Of a DNA stretch of 64,000 nt, positions 27,489 to 38,027 are shown in pieces. Location of the stretch: positions 1 through 64,000 of the forward strand of contig NZ_FNEK01000007.1 of assembly GCF_900099935.1 (NCBI RefSeq), given 5' to 3'. The position numbers and the translations under genes are program-made. Below the pieces are notes generated by a model. The model searched no databases. It saw nothing but the letters and a program-made list of their open reading frames with translations, and was not told the origin of the DNA. The first letter of the stretch is position 1. Each line of letters opens with the position of its first letter. Source of the DNA: Aliiruegeria lutimaris. Its GTDB lineage: Bacteria; Pseudomonadota; Alphaproteobacteria; Rhodobacterales; Rhodobacteraceae.

Positions 27489-28178
27489 TCAGTCCAAAAA
27501 GGTCTTCCAGAGCGCGCCGTCACCGAGCTTTTCCACCAACGCCTGATGCGCGAGGCGTTCCGGCTCCGTCAACTTCGAGGGCAGGGGGGCCGGACGCGGG
27601 CGCGGACGCCATGCGGATCCGGAACTGGAGCTGCTCTGGGAATTGGAGGCGAGAGCAAAATCGGGCTGCCGGCCACCAATGAGTTCCAGATAGACATCCG
27701 CGAGGATCTCGGAGTCGAGAAGCGCTCCGTGTAGTGTGCGCGAGGAGTTGTCGATGTTGAAGCGGCGGCAAAGCGCGTCCAGCGAGGAGGGGGAACCGGG
27801 GAAACGCTTTCGCGCCATTGCCAGCGTGTCCAGCGCCTGTGCCTTTGGCAGTTTCGCAAAGCCCGCCCATTCCAGCTCCGCATTGAGAAATTTCATGTCG
27901 AAGGGCGCGTTGTGGATGACCAGCACGGCATCCTGAATGAAATCCATGAAATCCTGCGCGATCGCCTCGAAAAGGGGTTTGTCGGCCAGGAACTCATCGG
28001 AGATTCCATGAACTTCATAGGCTTCCGTCGGCATGCTTCGCTGGGGGTTGATATATTGGTGATAGGTGCGGCCGGTGGGAACATGGTTTTCGAGCTCCAC
28101 GCCGCCGATCTCGACAATCCGGTGGCCATCGTAGGGGTCCAGTCCGGTTGTCTCCGTATCCATCACGATCTCACGCAT
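27489..28178 (-). CDS. dnaQ: DNA polymerase III epsilon subunit (3'-5' proofreading exonuclease)
   Basis: A 229-residue DEDDh exonuclease that proofreads for the replicative polymerase. ExoI is [10 protein letters not shown] (residues 6-15), ExoII lies in [13 protein letters not shown] and ExoIII in [17 protein letters not shown]. The C-terminal tail after residue 180 is a Ser/Pro-rich linker followed by a helix that should bind the polymerase alpha subunit. The start overlaps the coaE stop by 8 bp. It is the last gene of maf-aroE-coaE-dnaQ, the set that commonly flanks the alphaproteobacterial origin. Confidence 0.96.
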
Positions 28179-28764
28179 GCGATTTCCTCAACTCCGTCAT
28201 CAGCGTCCGAACCTGTGCTCGTGCGCCTTCCAGAGTAGTCGTGTCAATGACCAGATCCGCGCGGGCGCGTTTCTGGGAATCCGGCATCTGTTTCGACAGG
28301 ATTCGGTGGAATTGTTCAACACTCATGCCGGGGCGGGCAAGGACACGTTTGCGTTGTTCCGCCGCCGGGGCCGAGACGACCACGTTCAGGTCCATCCCTG
28401 CGCTCGCGCCGGTCTCGAACAGAAGCGGGATGTCGAGCAGCAGGATCGGCGCATCGGTCGCCGCAATGAACTCGGCGCGATCCTTCGCAAGGAGCGGATG
28501 CACGACGGCTTCGATCCGCGCCAGCGCGGTGTCATCCTGGCTGATCCACTCTTTCAATGCCTCGCGGCTCACTGCACCGTCGACGATGGAAGACGGGCAG
28601 ATGTCGCCGATCGGATCCACTGCGGCACCCCCCGGTGAATAGAGACGGTGCACGGCGGCATCGGCATCCCAGATCGGCACGCCTTCATCCGCGAACATGC
28701 CGGCGGTTGTCGACTTTCCCATTCCGATGGAACCGGTCAGTCCGATCAGGAAAGGTTTCGTCAT
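28171..28764 (-). CDS. coaE: Dephospho-CoA kinase
   Basis: A 197-residue P-loop kinase for the last step of coenzyme A synthesis. The start [19 protein letters not shown] at 28764 contains Walker A GSIGMGKS (11-18). [13 protein letters not shown] and [12 protein letters not shown] are family blocks for dephospho-CoA binding. The ATG at 28764 overlaps the aroE stop (ATGA), and the stop overlaps the dnaQ start. Confidence 0.96.
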
Positions 28765-29594
28765 TGAGCGAGCACCGCCTGACGGAGTTCGTCTGTCACT
28801 TCGGGCCGGATGCCAAACCAACGCTCGAAACCGGGCGCGGCCTGATGCAGAAGCATTCCGAGACCATCGACAACCCGGCAACCACGCTCGGCTGCGTGCC
28901 TGAGAAACGGCGTTTCGAGCGGAGCATAGACGAGATCGTTTACGGTGGCAGCCGGATCGAGCGCATCGAGCGAAACGCGGAATTCCGGCTTGCCGACCAT
29001 CCCAAGCGAGGTGGTATTCACGACGGTGGCCGCGCCGGCCAGCATCGGACCCGAATGCACCCAATCGTAGACTTCGATCTTGGGCCCGAATTCCGATCTC
29101 AACGCTTCGGCGCGACCGCGTGTGCGGTTGGTCAGGCGAATGGTCGGGGCACCGGCATCAATCAGGGCCGTGACGATTGCACGGGCGGCGCCACCGGCGC
29201 CGAACACCGCCGCCGGACCCGATTGCGGATCCCAGCCGGGAGCGTTTTGGCGCAGGTTGGCGAGGAAACCATAGCCATCCGTGTTATCAGCGTGAATTCG
29301 ACCATCTTCGTGGAAAATCAATGTGTTGGCTGCACCGATAAGGGCGGCGCGATCAGTTACCAGGTTGGCAAGGGAAAGCGCTGTCTCCTTGTGCGGGATG
29401 GTAACGTTGACGCCGACGAAACCCATCCGGGGGAGCATTTGCAACACCTCGGCCAGATCGGATTGAGCGATATCCATCGGAATGTAGTGGCCCGCCACGC
29501 CATACGTCTTCAACCAATGGCCATGCAACCTGGGAGACAACGAATGGGCGACGGGAGATCCGATCACCCCGGCAAGTGGTATTCTGGCAGTCAT
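28761..29594 (-). CDS. aroE: Shikimate dehydrogenase
   Basis: A 277-residue NADPH-dependent enzyme reducing 3-dehydroshikimate in aromatic amino acid synthesis. Shikimate binding: [10 protein letters not shown] and the catalytic lysine in NVTIPHKE; then [13 protein letters not shown] binding: [10 protein letters not shown] with NRT following. [18 protein letters not shown] closes the fold. It is linked by 4-bp overlaps to maf upstream and coaE downstream. Confidence 0.96.
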
Positions 29595-30187
29595 GTTTCG
29601 ATCACCCCTCTGAGTGCAAGATGATCTAACAGGGGCAATAACGGAAGCCCAAGGACGGAAAAGAAATCGCCATCGACACGCTCGAAAAAGCGGACACCTT
29701 CGGATTCGAGCTGGTAGGCGCCAACACAGTAACGGATCTGGTCCCAGTTCCGCGTGACATAGGAGTCGACATAGCTTTCCGACAACGTTCGCATCTTCAT
29801 TCGAACCGTTTCTGTGAACCGCCAGACAGGGCGATTGTCTTCGGCCAGCACCGCCGCACTGTGAAGGCGATGTTCCCGGCCCGAAAGCCGCAGAATCTGT
29901 TCGCAGGCATCGGCCGAATCAGCGGGCTTGGTCAGGATCGTTCCATCGAGTTCGAGAATCTGGTCGCATCCAAGAACCAGCTTTTCTGGTGCGCGCGCCG
30001 ACACCCTGAGCGCCTTGAGCTCGGCGAGATGATCGGAGATGTCGCGCGGCGAGAGGCCTTCGGCTTGCATCGCATGGCGCGCGGTCTCTTCGTCGATACG
30101 GGCTTTCGCCACCTCGAACGGAACGTGGGCATTGCGCAAGAGCTCGGCCCGGATTTCCGACCCGGACGCAAGACACAGAACTGGCAT
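29591..30187 (-). CDS. maf: Maf-like nucleotide pyrophosphatase
   Basis: A 198-residue Maf/HAM1-fold enzyme that hydrolyses non-canonical or modified nucleoside triphosphates. The start MPVLCLASGSEIRAELL at 30187 gives the Maf signature LASGSxxR at residues 5-12; LVLGCDQILEL holds the catalytic Asp, and GREHRLHSAAV follows. The active-site set resembles the 7-methyl-GTP/UTP class, but the substrate is not resolved. It is the first gene of the leftward run and borders the proposed origin; a DnaA-box-like TGTGGATAT overlaps its start codon. Confidence 0.93.
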   Translation of the reverse strand: MPVLCLASGSEIRAELLRNAHVPFEVAKARIDEETARHAMQAEGLSPRDISDHLAELKALRVSARAPEKLVLGCDQILELDGTILTKPADSADACEQILRLSGREHRLHSAAVLAEDNRPVWRFTETVRMKMRTLSESYVDSYVTRNWDQIRYCVGAYQLESEGVRFFERVDGDFFSVLGLPLLPLLDHLALRGVIET

Positions 30188-30596
30188 GTGGATATCCTCG
30201 TGGATAGCTCTGGGACTCCGGACTGTAAATCTTGTGACCTGATTGGAAGAAGATTTCCAGTAGGGGACTGGCAGAGCATATCGGGGATTACGGTCACACC
30301 CCGTCCACGGTGTGCAGTTTGAGCCGGGTGACTTGGGATGAATCCTGCTGTCCACCGCTGTCCCGGACCCGCACCCAGAACTGTCTACAGCGGGAAATTT
30401 TTTAACTATATGAAAAACAGAGAAATAAAATACTTATCCACAGAGTGTGACGAGCCTGTCTGATCTTTTTCACATTGGGGATGACTCGGTGGAGTTTCCA
30501 ATAATCCACAAATGCACAGGGACTACATCAACAACATCTTTTATTTCTTCTTTTATTTTTTATTTAGGGTAGGTCGGATTTCCTGGGAGGACGACC
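30188..30596. other. Probable chromosomal replication origin oriC
   Basis: A 409-bp gene-free stretch between divergent maf and hemJ, much richer in AT than its surroundings. It contains one perfect DnaA box (TTATCCACA, 30434-30442), a one-mismatch box (TAATCCACA, 30502-30510), a reverse one-mismatch box across the maf start (TGTGGATAT, 30187-30195), a weaker reverse CGTGGATAG (30199-30207) and AAATGCACA (30510-30518). Two AT-rich runs (about 30396-30437 and 30537-30565) could be the unwinding element. Three GANTC sites occur (30214, 30340, 30483). dnaQ-coaE-aroE-maf on one side and hemJ-rho-mnmE-mnmG-rsmG-parAB on the other is the known alphaproteobacterial origin neighbourhood. Confidence 0.75.
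30434..30442 (+). promoter_or_regulatory. Perfect DnaA box
   Basis: TTATCCACA matches the high-affinity DnaA consensus exactly. It abuts the AT-rich run at 30396-30437 inside the proposed oriC. Confidence 0.75.
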
Positions 30597-31049
30597 ATGA
30601 TAGAAGACTGGCTGACCGAATATTATGTCTGGATCAAGTCGCTACACGTGGTCTCCGTGATCGCATGGATGGCGGGTTTGTTCTACTTGCCGCGTCTGTA
30701 CGTTCATCACACGGAACAGACGACGCCAGGTACCGAGATGGATACCGTCTTCCAGATGATGGAGCGGAAGCTTTTGAAGCTCATCATGAACCCATCCATG
30801 ATCGCCAGCTGGGTCTTTGGCCTGATGCTGGTGCTGACCCCCGGGATTGTCGACTGGGGCGCTGTGTGGCCTTACACGAAGGCTGTGTCGATCCTGGCAA
30901 TGACCTGGTTCCATATGTGGCTCGCGGCGCATCGGCGCGACTTCATAGATGGGGATTTCAAGCTGTCAGGGCGCACCTACAGGATCATGAACGAGCTGCC
31001 GACGGTCTTGATGCTAATCATCGTCTTCTCGGTCATCGTTCGTTTCTGA
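30597..31049 (+). CDS. hemJ: Protoporphyrinogen IX oxidase HemJ
   Basis: A 150-residue inner-membrane haem-synthesis enzyme oxidising protoporphyrinogen IX to protoporphyrin IX, the form used where HemG and HemY are absent. Four transmembrane helices are predicted. The family block KSLHVVSVIAWMAGLFYLPR (residues 14-33) carries His17, a haem ligand, and YVHHTE follows. The start ATG 30597 follows CTGGGAGGACGACC. It is the first gene to the right of oriC, so its promoter must lie in or next to the origin. Confidence 0.94.
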   Translation: MIEDWLTEYYVWIKSLHVVSVIAWMAGLFYLPRLYVHHTEQTTPGTEMDTVFQMMERKLLKLIMNPSMIASWVFGLMLVLTPGIVDWGAVWPYTKAVSILAMTWFHMWLAAHRRDFIDGDFKLSGRTYRIMNELPTVLMLIIVFSVIVRF

Positions 31050-31070
31050 AGGGTCCGTGTTGCGTGGGAA

Positions 31071-31099
31071 TTGACTCCATGGCCTGGAGTCCTTAAATG
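31071..31099 (+). promoter_or_regulatory. Candidate rho promoter with palindromic spacer
   Basis: TTGACT (31071-31076) and TAAATG (31094-31099) are 17 bp apart. The spacer holds the perfect inverted repeat GACTCCA-N5-TGGAGTC (31073-31091), each arm carrying a GANTC (CcrM methylation) site. It lies between hemJ and rho. Confidence 0.4.
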
Positions 31100-31148
31100 C
31101 GCGTCAACGGCAGTCCTGCCAGGTCTCTCCATTCAAATACGAAATCGC

Positions 31149-31165
31149 CACCGGTTGCGCCGGTG
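31149..31165 (+). promoter_or_regulatory. Leader hairpin abutting the rho ribosome binding site
   Basis: CACCGG-TTGCG-CCGGTG forms a 6-bp stem with a 5-base loop, and the Shine-Dalgarno AAGGA follows without a gap (31166-31170). A protein or RNA acting on this hairpin could affect rho translation. Confidence 0.4.
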
Positions 31166-31179
31166 AAGGAATATTATTC

Positions 31180-32451
31180 ATGGCCGAACAATCGCTGACA
31201 CTCTCCGAACTCAAGGCGCAGAGCCCGAAGGATCTTCTGTCCACGGCAGAGGAGCTGGAGATCGACAACGCCTCCACGATGCGCAAGGGCGACATGATGT
31301 TCGCCATTTTGAAGGAGCGTGCCGAGGATGGCTGGGAAATCGCCGGTGATGGCGTTCTGGAAGTCATGCAGGACGGTTTCGGTTTTCTGAGATCGCCGGA
31401 AGCAAACTACCTGCCTGGTCCGGACGACATTTACCTGTCGCCCGATATGATCCGGCAATACTCGCTGCGCACGGGCGATACGGTTGATGGCGTGATCCAG
31501 GCGCCGCGCGAGAATGAGCGCTATTTCTGCATGACGAAGGTTACGCAGATCAATTTCGAGGACCCCGAACGGGCACGTCATAAGGTCAATTTCGACAACC
31601 TGACCCCGCTCTACCCGGATGAACGGTTGAAGATGGAGACGGACGATCCGACGGCGAAGGATCGCTCTGCCCGGATCATCGACCTGGTGGCGCCGATTGG
31701 AAAAGGTCAGCGGTGCTTGATCGTGGCGCCTCCGCGGACCGGCAAGACGGTGCTGCTTCAGAACATCGCGCATTCGATCGAGAAGAATCATCCGGAGTGC
31801 TACCTGATCGTTCTGCTGATCGATGAGCGCCCGGAAGAAGTGACCGATATGCAGCGGAGCGTGAAGGGCGAGGTGATCTCCTCGACCTTTGACGAGCCTG
31901 CGACGCGGCACGTTGCCGTGTCGGAAATGGTGATCGAGAAGGCCAAGCGCTTGGTCGAGCATAAACGAGATGTTGTTATTCTTCTAGACTCTATCACAAG
32001 ACTTGGTAGGGCATTCAACACAGTCGTGCCGTCTTCGGGCAAGGTTTTGACCGGTGGTGTGGACGCGAATGCGCTGCAACGCCCGAAGCGGTTCTTTGGT
32101 GCAGCCCGGAATATCGAAGAAGGTGGGTCGCTTACGATCATCGCGACGGCTCTGATCGACACAGGCAGTCGGATGGACGAAGTGATCTTCGAGGAATTCA
32201 AGGGAACGGGTAACTCGGAAATCGTGCTCGATCGTAAGGTTGCGGATAAACGTGTCTTCCCGGCGATGGATATTCTCAAGTCCGGTACCCGGAAGGAAGA
32301 GCTTCTGGTCGATAAGGGAGACCTGCAGAAGACGTTTGTCCTGCGTCGGATCCTGAACCCGATGGGTACGACGGATGCGATCGAATTCCTGATCTCGAAG
32401 TTGAAGCAGACGAAGTCGAACTCTGATTTCTTCGACTCCATGAACACCTGA
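31180..32451 (+). CDS. rho: Transcription termination factor Rho
   Basis: A 423-residue hexameric RNA helicase that ends transcription at Rho-dependent sites. The N-terminal domain starts [20 protein letters not shown]; the cold-shock-like RNA-binding fold has [15 protein letters not shown]; Walker A is [46 protein letters not shown] (Walker B) and [12 protein letters not shown] are core motifs. ATG 31180 follows AAGGAATATTATTC. It stands between hemJ and mnmE on the rightward replichore. All catalytic motifs are intact. Confidence 0.98.
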
Positions 32452-32473: not shown

Positions 32474-33754
32474 ATGGATACGATCTTTGCCCTGGCGACG
32501 GCGCCTGGCCGTGCCGGGGTGTCGGTGGTACGTGTTTCGGGCCCGAGAGCCTGGGAGATATGTCGTCTCCTTGCCGGAGATGTCCCGGCACCTCGCCGGG
32601 CCTCTTTGCGTCGATTGGTTAGTTCCGGTGTCGTGATTGATGAGGCTTTGATTTTGGCTTTTTCGGCTGGCGAGAGCTTTACCGGAGAAGAAGTTGTCGA
32701 ATTTCAGACCCATGGCAGTCCTGCCGTCGTCGGATTCTTACTGAAGACTCTCTCGGCACAAGAGGGAGCGCGGGTTGCCGAGCCCGGTGAGTTCACGCGT
32801 CGGGCACTGGAGAACGGACGTTTGGACCTCGCGGAGGTCGAGGGGCTTTCGGATCTCTTGACCGCGGAGACGGAAGCGCAAAGACGTCAGGCATTTCGGA
32901 TTTTCGATGGCGAGCTCGGCCGGCAAGTCGAGATCTGGAGATCCAAACTGCTGAGATCGGCGGCCTTGGTCGAGTCCACGATTGATTTCGCGGATGAAGA
33001 GGTGCCGGAGAATGTGTCACCCGAAGTGGAAAGCTTGTTGCGATCTCTTCGGAACGAGTTTGCCCGAGAAATTGAGGGAGTCGCTGTTTCAGAGCGTCTC
33101 CGATCCGGTTTTGAGGTCGCAATTGTTGGTCCGCCGAACGCTGGTAAGTCGACCTTGCTGAATCGTCTGGCGGGTCGTGACGCAGCGATTACGTCTGAAA
33201 TCGCGGGTACGACTCGAGATGTGATCGAGGTCCGCATGGATATCGACGGGCTTCCGGTGACATTCCTGGATACAGCAGGATTGCGTGAAACAGAGGATGT
33301 CGTTGAAGCAATCGGCGTTCAGCGGGCGCTTGATCGGGCAAACCAAGCGGATCTTCGGGTTGTTCTGGGGGTGGCAAGTCCGGGTTTGAAACTGGAGCCC
33401 GAGGATCTGGTTTTGATCCCGAAATCTGATCTTTTGGATGAGGCGGTAGAAAACCCGATTTCCGGGGTGACGGGTGAAGGTGTTACCGATCTTTTGGAGC
33501 AGATTTCCGCGGTTCTTGGCAAGCGCGTTTCCCAAGCGCATCTTGCTACGCATCTTCGTCATCAAGAGGCATTGCAAATTGCGGTCGAATCCCTAGATCA
33601 TGCGCTCGACTACCTGGCGCTGGAATCGGGCTTGGAGGAACTGGTTGCGGAAACGATAAGGGCAGCCATTCGGAGCGTTGATGCCTTGGTGGGTCGCATT
33701 GGCGTCGAAGATGTCCTCGGCGAGATCTTCAGAAACTTCTGCATTGGAAAGTGA
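32474..33754 (+). CDS. mnmE: tRNA modification GTPase MnmE
   Basis: A 426-residue potassium-dependent GTPase that with MnmG adds a carboxymethylaminomethyl or taurine-like group to U34 of tRNAs. The N-terminal tetrahydrofolate-binding domain begins [20 protein letters not shown]. The G domain has GPPNAGKST, the G2 loop AGTTRDV, DTAGLRE and a KSDLL in place of NKxD. The C-terminus ends NFCIGK, with the catalytic cysteine. It is slightly short for the family (about 450). The stop is two bases before the mnmG start codon, so the two partner subunits are co-expressed. Confidence 0.97.
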
Positions 33755-33756
33755 GG

Positions 33757-35628
33757 ATGTTTCACGTGAAACAGGACTATGATGTCATCGTTGTTGGTGG
33801 TGGACATGCCGGTTGTGAAGCCGCTTCCGCTGCGGCGAGGGCCGGTGCCAAGGTTGCGCTGGTTACTCTGAAGGCGACGGATCTTGGAGTCATGTCCTGC
33901 AACCCAGCGATCGGCGGGCTTGGGAAAGGCCATCTTGTCCGCGAGGTCGATGCGCTAGACGGTTTGATGGGGCGCGTTGCTGACCGCTCGGGAATCCAGT
34001 TTCGGCTACTGAATCGGAAGAAAGGGCCGGCGGTTCAAGGCCCGCGCGCACAGTCCGACCGAAAGCTGTACGCGGAAGCCATGACCTCAGAGATTGCGGG
34101 TACAGACGGCCTTGATCTCGTGACGGCTGAGGTTTGTGGGCTCTTGGAAGAGAACCGGCGTATTTCCGGGATCTCCGTTTCAGATGGCAGTGAAATTCGC
34201 GCTGCGGCCGTTGTCTTGACGACTGGTACATTTCTGAACGGAACGATCCATATCGGAGATAGAAAGCACGCTGGAGGCCGGATCGGAGACCGTAACTCGG
34301 TCCTGTTGGCAGATCAGATACGTGGCTTCGATCTGCCCATTGGCCGATTGAAAACTGGTACACCTCCGAGACTGGATGGGCGTACGATCAATTGGAGCAT
34401 TCTGGAGTCTCAACCGGGAGATCTTGATCCGTCGATGTTCTCCTTCCTGTCGACGAGACCGATTGCCAGGCAAATCTCTTGCGGAATCACCCATACGAAC
34501 GCCGCTACGCACGATATCATACGAGCCAATCTGGACCGATCAGCTATGTATGGTGGGCATATAGAAGGTGTTGGCCCCAGATATTGTCCCTCCATCGAAG
34601 ACAAGGTGGTTCGGTTTTCTTTGAAAGACTCTCACCAGATTTTCCTGGAGCCGGAGGGATTGGACGATTTCACTGTCTATCCAAACGGAATCTCTACATC
34701 CCTGCCGGAAGATGTTCAGGAGGCATATGTTCATTCCATTCGTGGACTTGAGGATGTTCGGATCCTTCAACCGGGTTATGCCATCGAGTATGACTATATT
34801 GATCCGAGGAGTTTGGACCATTGTTTGGCTCTGCGACACCTCTCTGGGCTTTTTCTTGCAGGACAGATTAACGGAACCACCGGGTACGAAGAAGCGGCGG
34901 CTCAAGGCTTGGTTGCAGGGTTGAACGCGGCGCGGCATGCTAGGCAACTGGAACCGGTTACTTTCGATCGAAGCGAAAGCTACATTGGTGTGATGGTTGA
35001 CGATCTGATCACCCAAGGTGTTATCGAGCCATACCGGATGTTTACCTCAAGGGCGGAGTACCGTCTGTCTTTGAGAGCGGACAATGCCGACCAGAGATTG
35101 ACGCCTTTAGCCATCTCACTGGGGATTGCTTCCCGGCAACGAGCCGAGGCTTTCGACAAGAAGCTCTCGAAAATCAAGGCGGCAAAGGAATTACTTGGTA
35201 CCCATATGGTCAGTTCAAGGGAACTGGGTGGGGTAGGTGTCAAGGTAAACTTGGACGGTCCCAAGAGGTCGGGCTTGGATTCGTTGACTCTTCCCGGGGC
35301 AAGTGTGGAAGGACTATCGCCCTTGATTCCGGGCTTGGATCAGATTGACCGGGATATCCTGGAGCAGGTTGAGCGAGACTCGCTCTATAAAAATTACATC
35401 GATCGACAGCAGAAGGACGTTGAAGCCTTGAAAAAGGACGAGGCTTGGATCATTCCAGATGGTTTTTCTTATGACGGTCTTGATGGCCTTTCCAATGAAC
35501 TGCGAAGCAAACTTGAGAATGTGCGCCCGCGGACTTTGGCTCAGGCGGGTCGCATAGGAGGCATGACTCCGGCTGCTCTGACCCTGATCCTTGCACATAT
35601 CCGGCGCGGGGAACGCCGGCGTGCCTGA
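33757..35628 (+). CDS. mnmG: tRNA uridine-5-carboxymethylaminomethyl synthesis enzyme MnmG (GidA)
   Basis: A 623-residue FAD enzyme, partner of MnmE. The FAD-binding motif is [19 protein letters not shown] near the N-terminus. [31 protein letters not shown] and [20 protein letters not shown] are family blocks; the C-terminal helical domain contains TRPxTL-like [13 protein letters not shown]. The ATG at 33757 was chosen; a GTG two codons earlier is possible. The first codons MFHVKQ are encoded by a parS site, so the N-terminus is shaped by centromere sequence. The stop overlaps the GTG start of rsmG. Confidence 0.97.
33758..33773. other. parS centromere site 1
   Basis: TGTTTCACGTGAAACA is a perfect 16-bp palindrome identical to the ParB-binding consensus. 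It begins at the second base of the mnmG start codon and so lies inside coding sequence. It is about 3.3 kb from the proposed oriC and 3.3 kb before parB. Confidence 0.95.
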
Positions 35629-36253
35629 ACTTGAACGCTTGATGACAGACACGCTCGGGCTCAATGTTTCACGTGAAACACTCGATCGCTTGAGAACCCA
35701 CCTTGAGTTGCTTCGGAAGTGGAACCCGAAGATCAATCTCGTGTCCCCTTCGACACTTGCTATAGGTGCTGTCAGGCATATTGCAGATTCCGCGCAATTG
35801 ATGAACTGCATCACAGGAGGCGAAAGCTCTTGGCTCGACTTCGGATCGGGCGGAGGATTTCCAGGTCTCGTCTGCGCCATCCTCGCACAGGAGTTGGCGC
35901 CGGATCTCAGGTTCACCCTGGTCGAGAGCGACAAGAGAAAATCGGCGTTCCTTCTTAACACTTCCCGAGCCATCGATCTGAAAGTGACCATTCTGGCAAA
36001 GAGAATCGAAGATGTGCCACCTCAAAACGCGGACATCATCTCGGCCCGCGCTGTGGCGAACCTAGCGAAACTCCTGGAATACGCGAAGCCGCACCTTTCA
36101 GATGTCGGAAAGTGTATTTTTCCAAAGGGGGAGCGCTTTGAGGACGAGCTACGCGATGCCCGAAAGCAGTGGAACTTCAAGTTGTCGCAAAAGCCAAGTA
36201 TAACCGACGACAACGCAGCCATTTTGGTGCTTGGAGATATCGCCCGTGTCTGA
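35621..36253 (+). CDS. rsmG: 16S rRNA (guanine-N7) methyltransferase RsmG (GidB)
   Basis: A 210-residue SAM-dependent methyltransferase for G527 of 16S rRNA (E. coli numbering); loss of it gives low-level streptomycin resistance in other bacteria. The SAM motif is [14 protein letters not shown] (normally D-x-G-S-G-x-G-x-P-G). INLVSPST and [17 protein letters not shown] are family blocks. The start is taken as GTG 35621, overlapping the mnmG stop by 8 bp; ATG 35642 is an alternative. Residues [11 protein letters not shown] are encoded across a parS site. parA starts 8 bp before its stop. Confidence 0.95.
35665..35680. other. parS centromere site 2
   Basis: A second exact TGTTTCACGTGAAACA, identical to site 1, inside the 5' part of rsmG where it encodes VSRET. 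It is 566 bp upstream of the parA start. The two sites are 1.9 kb apart. Confidence 0.95.
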
Positions 36254-37055
36254 CAGATCAAGGCCGAATTCGGCAAAAATCATTGCTGTCGCCAACCAGA
36301 AAGGCGGGGTGGGAAAGACCACAACGACGATCAATCTAGGCGCTGCTCTGGCCGAAACCGGTCATAAAGTACTGATTGTCGATCTGGATCCGCAGGGAAA
36401 CGCCTCAACAGGTTTGGGTGTCTCTGCTTCGGATCGTGGTATGACAACCTATGATCTGTTGCTTGAGGACGCTCCAATCTCCTCGATCGTTCAGCAAACC
36501 GATATTGCAAACCTGTCGCTCGCGCCTTCCACAACCGATCTCAGTTCTGCCGATATCGAGCTTGTTTCCAACGAAAGAAGGAGCTTCCTCCTTCACGACG
36601 CCTTGCGAAAACCGAGTTTTAACGAATTTGGTTACGATCATGTTCTCATCGATTGTCCACCGTCGTTGAACCTTTTGACTGTCAATGCAATGGTGGCAGC
36701 CCACTCCGTATTGGTTCCGCTCCAGAGCGAGTTTTACGCCCTCGAAGGGTTGTCGCAACTTATGATGACTTTACGGGAGGTTCGACAGACGGCCAATCCC
36801 GATCTCCGCATCGAAGGCGTACTCCTGACGATGTATGACATAAGAAACAACTTGTCGCTTCAAGTCGAACAGGATGCGCGCGAAGCTTTGGGTGACCTCG
36901 TGTTTCAGACTCGGATACCGCGCAATGTGCGCATCAGTGAAGCGCCCAGCTTCGCCCAGTCAGTCCTTGAATACGACACGCGCTCCAAAGGAAGCGTGGC
37001 GTACCGGGAGCTCGCGCAGGAAATGGTCTCTCGCAGTGTTGGATCATCGCTTTAA
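36246..37055 (+). CDS. parA: Chromosome partitioning ATPase ParA
   Basis: A 269-residue Walker-type ATPase that binds DNA non-specifically when ATP-bound and drives ParB-parS segregation. The deviant Walker A is KGGVGKTTT (19-27), followed by VLIVDLDPQGNASTGLG (Walker A') and HVLIDCPPSLNLLTVNAM (Walker B). The start is GTG 36246 with GGAG 9 bp upstream; it overlaps the rsmG stop by 8 bp. The 14-residue N-terminus lacks a long HTH extension, as in chromosomal type Ia/Soj proteins. parB follows after 12 bp. Confidence 0.97.
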   Translation: MSDRSRPNSAKIIAVANQKGGVGKTTTTINLGAALAETGHKVLIVDLDPQGNASTGLGVSASDRGMTTYDLLLEDAPISSIVQQTDIANLSLAPSTTDLSSADIELVSNERRSFLLHDALRKPSFNEFGYDHVLIDCPPSLNLLTVNAMVAAHSVLVPLQSEFYALEGLSQLMMTLREVRQTANPDLRIEGVLLTMYDIRNNLSLQVEQDAREALGDLVFQTRIPRNVRISEAPSFAQSVLEYDTRSKGSVAYRELAQEMVSRSVGSSL

Positions 37056-37067
37056 ACCGGGGTGAAA

Positions 37068-38027
37068 ATGGAAAAGAAAAGCAGAAAAACCAGAGGATTG
37101 GGCCGTGGCCTTTCAGCCCTGATGGCCGACGTCTCTATGGACTCGTCGGATCCGACGAATGCAACACCGGTTGCGGCCGAACGGACCTTGCCAATCGAAA
37201 GCCTTGTTGCGAACCCCGATCAGCCCAGAAAAGACTTCTCACCAACGGCATTGCAGGAACTATGTGATTCCATTCGCGAAAAGGGGATCATCCAACCCCT
37301 GATTGTACGCGAGAATCCCCGCGACAAGTCTCAATACGAGATCGTAGCCGGCGAGCGCCGTTGGCGGGCCGCTCAGATGGCGCAAGTGCATGATATTCCT
37401 GTTGTTATCCGGGAACTAGATGACACGGAAGTCCTGGAAATCGCGATAATCGAGAACGTGCAGAGAGCCGATCTGAACGCGATCGAGGAGGGTCTGGGTT
37501 ATCGCCAGTTGATCGAGCGCTTTGGACATACCCAGGAAAAACTGGCTCAGGCGCTCGGAAAAAGCCGCAGCCATATCGCGAACGTAATGCGACTGCTGCA
37601 ATTGCCGGACGAAGTGCAGGGAATGCTCCGCGAAGGAAAGATTTCTGCTGGACATGCCAGGGCAATCATCACATCGGACGAGCCTTCTGCTCTCGCGCGC
37701 CGGGTCATTTCCAAGGGTCTGTCCGTTCGCGAAACGGAAGCTCTAGCCAAAAGATCAGATCCAGCCAGGCAACCTAAGCCTATCAACAAAAGACAACCGC
37801 CGCAGAAAGATGCGGACACGCGGGCACTTGAGTCGGATTTATCCGCCAATCTTCGAATGAAGGTTTCGATTGATCATCTGGACGTAGATGGCTCCGGACA
37901 AATGGTCATCCGTTACCGATCGTTGGACCAACTCGATGCGCTGTGTCAGTTGCTTTCGACGAGCCCGTTGGACGAGTCCATACAAACAACGAGACCGCGC
38001 TCAGGATTACAGCCTGGACAGCGATGA
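37068..38027 (+). CDS. parB: Chromosome partitioning protein ParB (parS-binding CTPase)
   Basis: A 319-residue centromere-binding clamp that loads on parS and spreads using CTP. The N-terminal ParA-stimulating region has RGLGRGLSALM; the CTPase domain has NPDQPRKDF, REKGIIQPLIV and the arginine patch GERRWRAAQMA; ENVQRADLNAIEE precedes the HTH domain (LAQALGKSRSHIANVMRLLQ) that reads parS. The C-terminal dimer domain is present. ATG 37068 follows CCGGGGTGAAA; GTG 37062 is an alternative. Its last 122 bp overlap, tail to tail, the DUF454 gene. Confidence 0.97.
   Translation: MEKKSRKTRGLGRGLSALMADVSMDSSDPTNATPVAAERTLPIESLVANPDQPRKDFSPTALQELCDSIREKGIIQPLIVRENPRDKSQYEIVAGERRWRAAQMAQVHDIPVVIRELDDTEVLEIAIIENVQRADLNAIEEGLGYRQLIERFGHTQEKLAQALGKSRSHIANVMRLLQLPDEVQGMLREGKISAGHARAIITSDEPSALARRVISKGLSVRETEALAKRSDPARQPKPINKRQPPQKDADTRALESDLSANLRMKVSIDHLDVDGSGQMVIRYRSLDQLDALCQLLSTSPLDESIQTTRPRSGLQPGQR

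Follow-up and report, generated by a model that had tools for sequence, protein, structure and literature searches.

The intergenic region between the divergent genes maf and hemJ (positions 30188–30596 of the window, that is, of the whole 64,000-nt stretch of DNA analysed here) is very probably the chromosomal oriC of this Rhodobacteraceae strain and, beside its rightmost DnaA boxes, it carries a three-nucleotide periodic element that looks like the deviant DnaA-trio without middle adenine suspected by Pelliciari et al. in 2021. The identification as an origin, already put forward in a preliminary description of this DNA, is upheld by the constancy of the gap in position, orientation and length, by the enrichment of boxes, by the strand skew of three relatives, by the parS sites and by published practice for the family. 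Comparison of homologous gaps establishes the conserved position, the box enrichment and the succession of tandem boxes, 4-nt spacer and 3-nt periodic element, whereas the mode of opening is proposed from likeness to Bacillus subtilis.

Gene order and composition of the region

The strain is represented by a draft genome (G000) of 5,811,514 bases in 193 contigs, and the closest named HemJ among the matches listed is that of Aliiruegeria sabulilitoris (95% identity). The genes around the gap, as supported by Pfam, are the following.

27489–28178, minus strand: dnaQ-like exonuclease gene, left side (RNase_T)
28171–28764, minus strand: coaE, left side (CoaE, E 9.3e-39)
28761–29594, minus strand: aroE, left side
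29591–30187, minus strand: maf, left flank (Maf, PF02545, E 6.7e-44)
30597–31049, plus strand: hemJ, right flank (UPF0093, E 1.3e-56)
31180–32451, plus strand: rho
32474–33754, plus strand: mnmE
33751–35628, plus strand: mnmG
36231–37055, plus strand: parA
37062–38027, plus strand: parB

The divergence that had been described, with maf, aroE, coaE and the dnaQ-like gene leaving the gap to the left and hemJ, rho, mnmE, mnmG, rsmG, parA and parB to the right, is therefore as claimed. The statement that such a neighbourhood is known around alphaproteobacterial origins also agrees with the literature: a conserved gene cluster at these origins has long been recognised (PMC1914354, through the title of its reference Brassinga 2001), and oriC was predicted near parAB for 101 Rhodobacteraceae strains (Kopejtka et al. 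2019, PMC6699656). The latter predictions used the same criteria as applied here, namely DnaA boxes, a local GC minimum and nearness to parAB, so that an oriC with boxes near parAB is already published for the family and the maf–hemJ gap would be a further member; neither hemJ nor maf is mentioned in the main text of that paper (count 0) and, unlike here, no unwinding element is described in the parts available. In Caulobacter crescentus and Rickettsia, the origin lies at the hemE–COG1806 boundary (PMC1914354); as here, it is a gap of about 400 bp with DnaA boxes beside a heme-synthesis gene, although the boundaries in our case are maf and hemJ.

The drop in GC was confirmed, the gap having 46.9% against 60.9% for the whole window, a value undercut by just 0.36% of 409-nt windows. 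The two AT-rich runs are equally real, since the top 40-mers of the 64 kb (34/40 AT) begin at 30395–30398 and at 30527. The first run (30394–30434) is 83% AT, and the AT-rich unwinding region expected to adjoin the boxes of an oriC is thus represented by the AT-richest 40-mers of the window. The three GANTC sites are present (30214, 30340 and 30483), yet the enrichment that they might suggest did not stand: across 107 homologous gaps their density (3.24 per kb, against 1.86 in the 20-kb surroundings) is that expected of AT-richer DNA, and shuffles of the same gaps contain 1.53 sites per gap compared with 1.35 observed, so a GANTC/CcrM enrichment was rejected. CtrA-type sites (TTAA-N7-TTAA) reach 0.056 per gap versus 0.012 in shuffled gaps, confined to 6 of the 107, and the gap of the window has none. 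No Rfam family was found at gathering scores within 29000–32000.

That transcription of hemJ passes through the origin is a consequence of geometry, the AT-rich element stopping some 30 nt short of the hemJ ATG. The promoter in or beside the origin that had been postulated for hemJ fared worse: the sole promoter-like upstream match (30402–30431) is at about chance level (2 matches in the region, 0.5 expected, sd 0.8) and was discarded.

DnaA boxes and conservation of the gap

HemJ searches provided 30 loci (our own included) from 100 Rhodobacteraceae genomes, 80 of them with a match, and from a second collection the best 80 of 152 HemJ loci were taken. Among the 110 loci examined, with two copies of our own locus set aside, maf was not found in three (L031, L090 and L100); in all 107 loci with both genes, maf and hemJ diverge across a gap of about 350–460 bp. 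Boxes with at most one mismatch amount to 3.03 per gap in these 107 gaps, about 30 times the 0.095 of mononucleotide shuffles, and perfect boxes to 0.50 per gap against 0.002, with at least one in 44 of the 107. Both here and in the window, therefore, the cluster of boxes in the intergenic gap exceeds chance. The boxes keep similar distances from hemJ, while much of the intervening sequence is not conserved.

The box-like sites of the window gap are as follows.

30187–30207, minus strand: left tandem pair of DnaA-box-like sites, ATATCCACA (30187–30195) and CTATCCACG (30199–30207)
30434–30442, plus strand: perfect DnaA box, TTATCCACA
30502–30510, plus strand: DnaA box TAATCCACA, left member of the tandem pair adjoining the likely unwinding element, aligned in near relatives
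30510–30518, plus strand: second, weak box AAATGCACA, at the aligned position of the family's downstream box

These sites correspond to those of the preliminary description: the perfect box and the one-mismatch near-boxes at 30187 and 30502 were all recovered, and the two weaker ones are real but weak, with two mismatches at 30199–30207 and three at 30510–30518. Over its full length, the window contains 10 boxes within one mismatch where 4.65 are expected, and 2 of 100 shuffles reach 10; three of the 10 fall inside 324 bp of the gap. That the gap has only these three counts against the oriC reading. The box at 30187 does overlap the maf start codon as had been noted, by one base, and the position of the left pair, where the family majority is GTGGATAACCCTGTGGATAA on the plus strand, belongs to the two best-conserved blocks in the 107 gaps. 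Judging from this arrangement, DnaA binding at the left inverted tandem pair and maf expression may interfere with each other.

A periodic element next to the right-hand boxes

The best-conserved block of the gap consists of the two-box platform, four nucleotides and an element with a period of three. In the window it continues from the right-hand boxes as follows.

30519–30522: spacer GGGA, 4 nt (family majority GGCC; a gap of four in 41 of 44 strict cases)
30523–30540, minus strand: deviant DnaA-trio-like element, bound strand 3'-GAT GTA GTT GTT GTA GAA-5'
30541–30567, minus strand: AT-rich run 2, likely duplex-unwinding region, continuing in register with [G/A]A[A/T]-type triplets

Past 30540, the same register gives the triplets AAT AAA GAA GAA and onwards. 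Among the window and nine near relatives, conservation is highest in a run identical or close to TAATCCACAAATnCACAG, after which come CTAC and a T-rich tract, and a plus-strand C is invariant at every third base (30523, 30526, 30529, 30532, 30535 and 30538). A gapless profile of 106 distinct gaps (one near-identical gap, L039, was left out) gave a box, a 4-nt spacer and the plus-strand units CTA CAW CAW CAT CAT CTT, with C frequencies of 0.80, 0.88, 0.62, 0.93, 0.83 and 0.75 at the six unit starts. Since this profile had been seeded with a C-periodic consensus, seed-free tests were made. One of them looked for 18-mers that lack G, have C at no fewer than five of the six third-base places and contain three other C at the most. 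Such an 18-mer lies in the 140 nt ahead of hemJ in 77 of 105 loci, compared with 63 occurrences elsewhere in 3.27 million strand-bases (0.0027 per equal stretch); that the remaining 28 loci lack it counts against our explanation. The autocorrelation of C in 102 G-free runs gave z values of 11.3, 7.3 and 5.4 at lags 3, 6 and 9, the other lags being at or below the shuffles. Finally, 44 of 107 gaps show the element behind a box of no more than two mismatches, 41 of them with a spacer of four, and the combination occurs in 0 of 107 reversed sequences.

The meaning of this pattern is best appreciated against B. subtilis, where a DnaA filament is loaded from two co-oriented boxes onto trios of consensus 3'-GAT-5', and where the loss of one base within the trios slows opening while the loss of three leaves it at about the wild-type rate (PMC6669920). 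The bound strand has been resolved as G20 G19 G18-A17-T16, with Asn187 reading A17, and Arg202 together with Glu228 reading G18; opening is slowed by G or T in place of A17 but not by C (PMC10721633). In the literature covered, this is the only structure in which trios are read base by base. Opening by box plus trio has been shown in vitro for several species besides Bacillus (PMC8287927).

The region shares with the Bacillus BUS two co-oriented boxes (30502–30510 plus the weak 30510–30518), a short spacer, a 3-nt repeat, an AT-rich tail and a first unit 3'-GAT-5', the latter found in 29 of the 44 strict cases. In the Bacillus register, the Rhodobacteraceae bound strand reads 3'-GG-GAT-GTW-GTW-GTA-GTA-GAA, with G as the constant letter at each third base. 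It differs in that units 2–5 mostly have T in the middle instead of adenine: a middle adenine is found in 23, 11, 16 and 14% of units 2 to 5 in the 44 strict cases (9–18% in the family profile), and in all of units 1 to 3 in just one of 96 Rhodobacteraceae cores. The element thus appears unlike the Bacillus trios, its constant letter being the first base and not the middle adenine. The suspicion of "deviant" trios, for instance without middle adenine, was voiced in PMC8287927. A trio variant from Alphaproteobacteria is mentioned neither in the titles and opening lines of abstracts retrieved on DnaA-trios nor in passages of PMC10797057, PMC5043019 and PMC10225481; the supplementary tables of PMC8287927 may hold cases.

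By analogy with the Bacillus BUS, a course of initiation can be proposed in which DnaA would bind boxes spread across 400 bp, those at the maf start (the left tandem pair) and those at 30502–30518 (the right pair) being the outermost; the right pair would then lay a DnaA filament onto the minus strand of 30523–30540 and of the AT-rich run behind it, and the duplex would open at the element and this run, about 30 bp ahead of hemJ. The whole of this explanation, that is, an oriC in the gap, a filament passing from box to trio, opening at the element and deviant trios with a constant G, is one that we hold with considerable confidence.

The most serious competitor accepts the gap as oriC and supposes ordinary middle-adenine trios (3'-NAN-5') in a register one base off, 3'-TAG TAG AAA-5', in which case the recognition would not be new. 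The published search rule, which asks for three or more 3'-NAN-5' trios no farther than 16 bp from a box (PMC8287927), does lend it some support: for the aligned box, 65 of 96 cores contain three or more consecutive NAN triplets that start within 16 nt, mostly in another register than that of the element, compared with 46.9 (sd 4.4) when the tails are shuffled, and 53 of the 65 do so at offsets 8, 11 or 14. If every box in the gap is admitted, 54 of 107 gaps pass with one mismatch allowed and 81 with two, counts without a shuffled control. Nevertheless, the gap of the window fails the rule even when boxes may carry two mismatches. In the shifted register, moreover, the middle A reaches just 45–50% in the near units and 66–79% in the far ones, G being more constant, and three canonical [G/A]A[T/A] trios are present in only 3 of 96 cores. 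A locus from another family (L264), with 3'-GTT repeated five times, has no middle A in either register, and the start G-G-G-A-T agrees with the Bacillus register (PMC10721633). Taken together, we consider the shifted register rather unlikely, if still to be reckoned with.

The reader residue of DnaA and other alphaproteobacterial families

When the DnaA of our strain (encoded on contig 182) was aligned with the B. subtilis chain 8btg_A, Tyr was found at the position of Asn187, the residue that reads the middle adenine, while Glu183 and Glu228 were kept. The same Tyr is present in 9 of 9 Rhodobacteraceae. Of 49 alphaproteobacterial DnaAs, one per genome and picked from the genomes used for origins, 42 have Tyr at this position, while Phe, Asn and Arg occur twice each and Val once; E. 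coli DnaA has Gln. A Lys at the Arg202 position was dropped as an alphaproteobacterial mark, for E. coli likewise has Lys. Partial matches to DnaA-family ATPases were also seen in our own genome (C50:1916–2212 and C77:21542–21838) and, on contig 1 of G013, 14 above the cut-off. These partial copies are presumably transposon ATPases of the IstB type.

The trio-reading residues are not universally conserved, their properties being generally maintained, and the 2023 structure paper leaves open the matter of DnaA homologues that read other sequences (PMC10721633). For other families of the class, 40 of 114 genomes with a Rho match were used, taking the region upstream of rho. At least three one-mismatch boxes within 600 nt were found in 22 of the 40, and in 15 of these the cluster starts 3.1 to 3.8 kb before rho; the 18 other-family loci of the 40 that lack a three-box cluster upstream of rho count against our explanation. 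The periodic element with at least two nearby boxes occurs in 22 of the 40 loci, 15 of them with at least three boxes, and several of the other seven (fewer than three boxes) lie in the places of other genes and are thus probably not origins. Under a stricter rule that demands an adjacent box, 7 of the 40 loci pass, compared with none of 40 in the reversed and in the shuffled controls; in one of the seven (L252) the hit is on the minus strand, and this locus does not enter the unit counts. The E. coli oriC fails this strict rule of box plus element. In such class tallies, the first-base G is partly true by construction of the search rule, and the middle base of the 90 units from the 15 loci with the element and at least three boxes (A 0.32, G 0.30, T 0.38) is to be read knowing that the rule excludes C and favours a first G.

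The two genomes with Asn at the Asn187 position (G191 and G214), both from one genus, have 3'-GAT GAT GAA-5' as their first three units. This pairing is a hint from a single lineage and not a test; a search for covariation beyond the genus, in the order of G191, yielded only two genomes.

From these comparisons it can be proposed, tentatively and at somewhat less than an even chance, that alphaproteobacterial DnaA opens origins by a distinct 3'-GNN-5' class of trios, in which the first guanine would replace the middle adenine as the specifying base, and that this change went with the loss of Asn187, mostly to Tyr. This origin and its relatives supply a defined class of sequences, their register and a single residue to exchange, and therefore the question of deviant trios becomes a strand-separation assay. 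The G-first element could also help to predict origins in Alphaproteobacteria, which the published trio rule describes poorly. The lineages with Phe, Val or Arg at the Asn187 position (L296, L316, L330, L318 and L331, the DnaAs of G128, G108, G209, G102 and G205) would be useful contrasts for trio specificity.

Strand asymmetry, parS sites and other explanations of the region

The check on the origin claim that relied on skew had a divided outcome. The contig that carries the window (C119; 114 kb, too small to decide) has no minimum at 30.4 kb, while three complete relatives fit the gap better than dnaA. The analysis was limited to complete genomes, the nine genomes of our own genus all being in at least 20 contigs, and each relative was divided into 34 to 40 stretches of about 20 kb, with the terminus assumed to lie opposite. 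Relative to the maf–hemJ gap, the best GC-skew step lies at 0 kb in G045, −25 kb in G055 and −15 kb in G003. The best cut for the KOPS-like motif GGGNAGGG lies at 0, at −10 to −15 and at −115 to −125 kb, respectively; the last of these, 115–125 kb off the gap, counts against the oriC reading. The dnaA gene is at +67, −123 and +81 kb and, in 3 of 3 complete relatives, the GC-skew step and the KOPS-like cut are both closer to maf–hemJ than to dnaA.

A palindrome search with the parS consensus returned two perfect sites.

33758–33773: perfect parS palindrome 1, at the start of mnmG
35665–35680: perfect parS palindrome 2, just past mnmG

Allowing up to two mismatches, this pair contains the only matches in our 5.8-Mb draft, and in 5 of 5 genomes tested it is found 3–5 kb to the right of the gap, at matching distances from hemJ.

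The possibility that the true origin lies elsewhere, the gap being a conserved DnaA-regulated promoter region, has to be judged on the same data. It could draw on the lack of a skew minimum in our own 114-kb contig and on the fact that the record starts at dnaA in 4 of 7 other genomes examined; an origin next to dnaA is disfavoured by the skew markers of the three relatives. A second site, on contig 97 of the draft (36139–36374; L112:9140–9375), comprises a pair of perfect boxes at a distance of 227 bp, in what looks like the space between two converging reading frames. These twin boxes are isolated, with no further box of at most one mismatch in 18 kb, and the 482 bp around them found no counterpart among 19 other genomes, of which 8 belong to the same genus, so they were rejected as an origin; they could be a strain-specific DnaA titration site. 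All in all, an origin away from the gap is very improbable.

Least probable of all is that the 3-nt periodicity, typical as it is of coding DNA, reflects a leader peptide or an upstream part of hemJ and no DnaA element, an explanation rejected since the phase to the hemJ ATG is even (distance modulo 3 of 35/34/27 in 96 loci), a stop intervenes between element and ATG in about half of them (53/96 in the hemJ frame, 51/96 in that of the element), G is almost absent from the element, and a locus of another family (L251) has a similar core ahead of a reading frame that, judged from its translation, is HemE-like.
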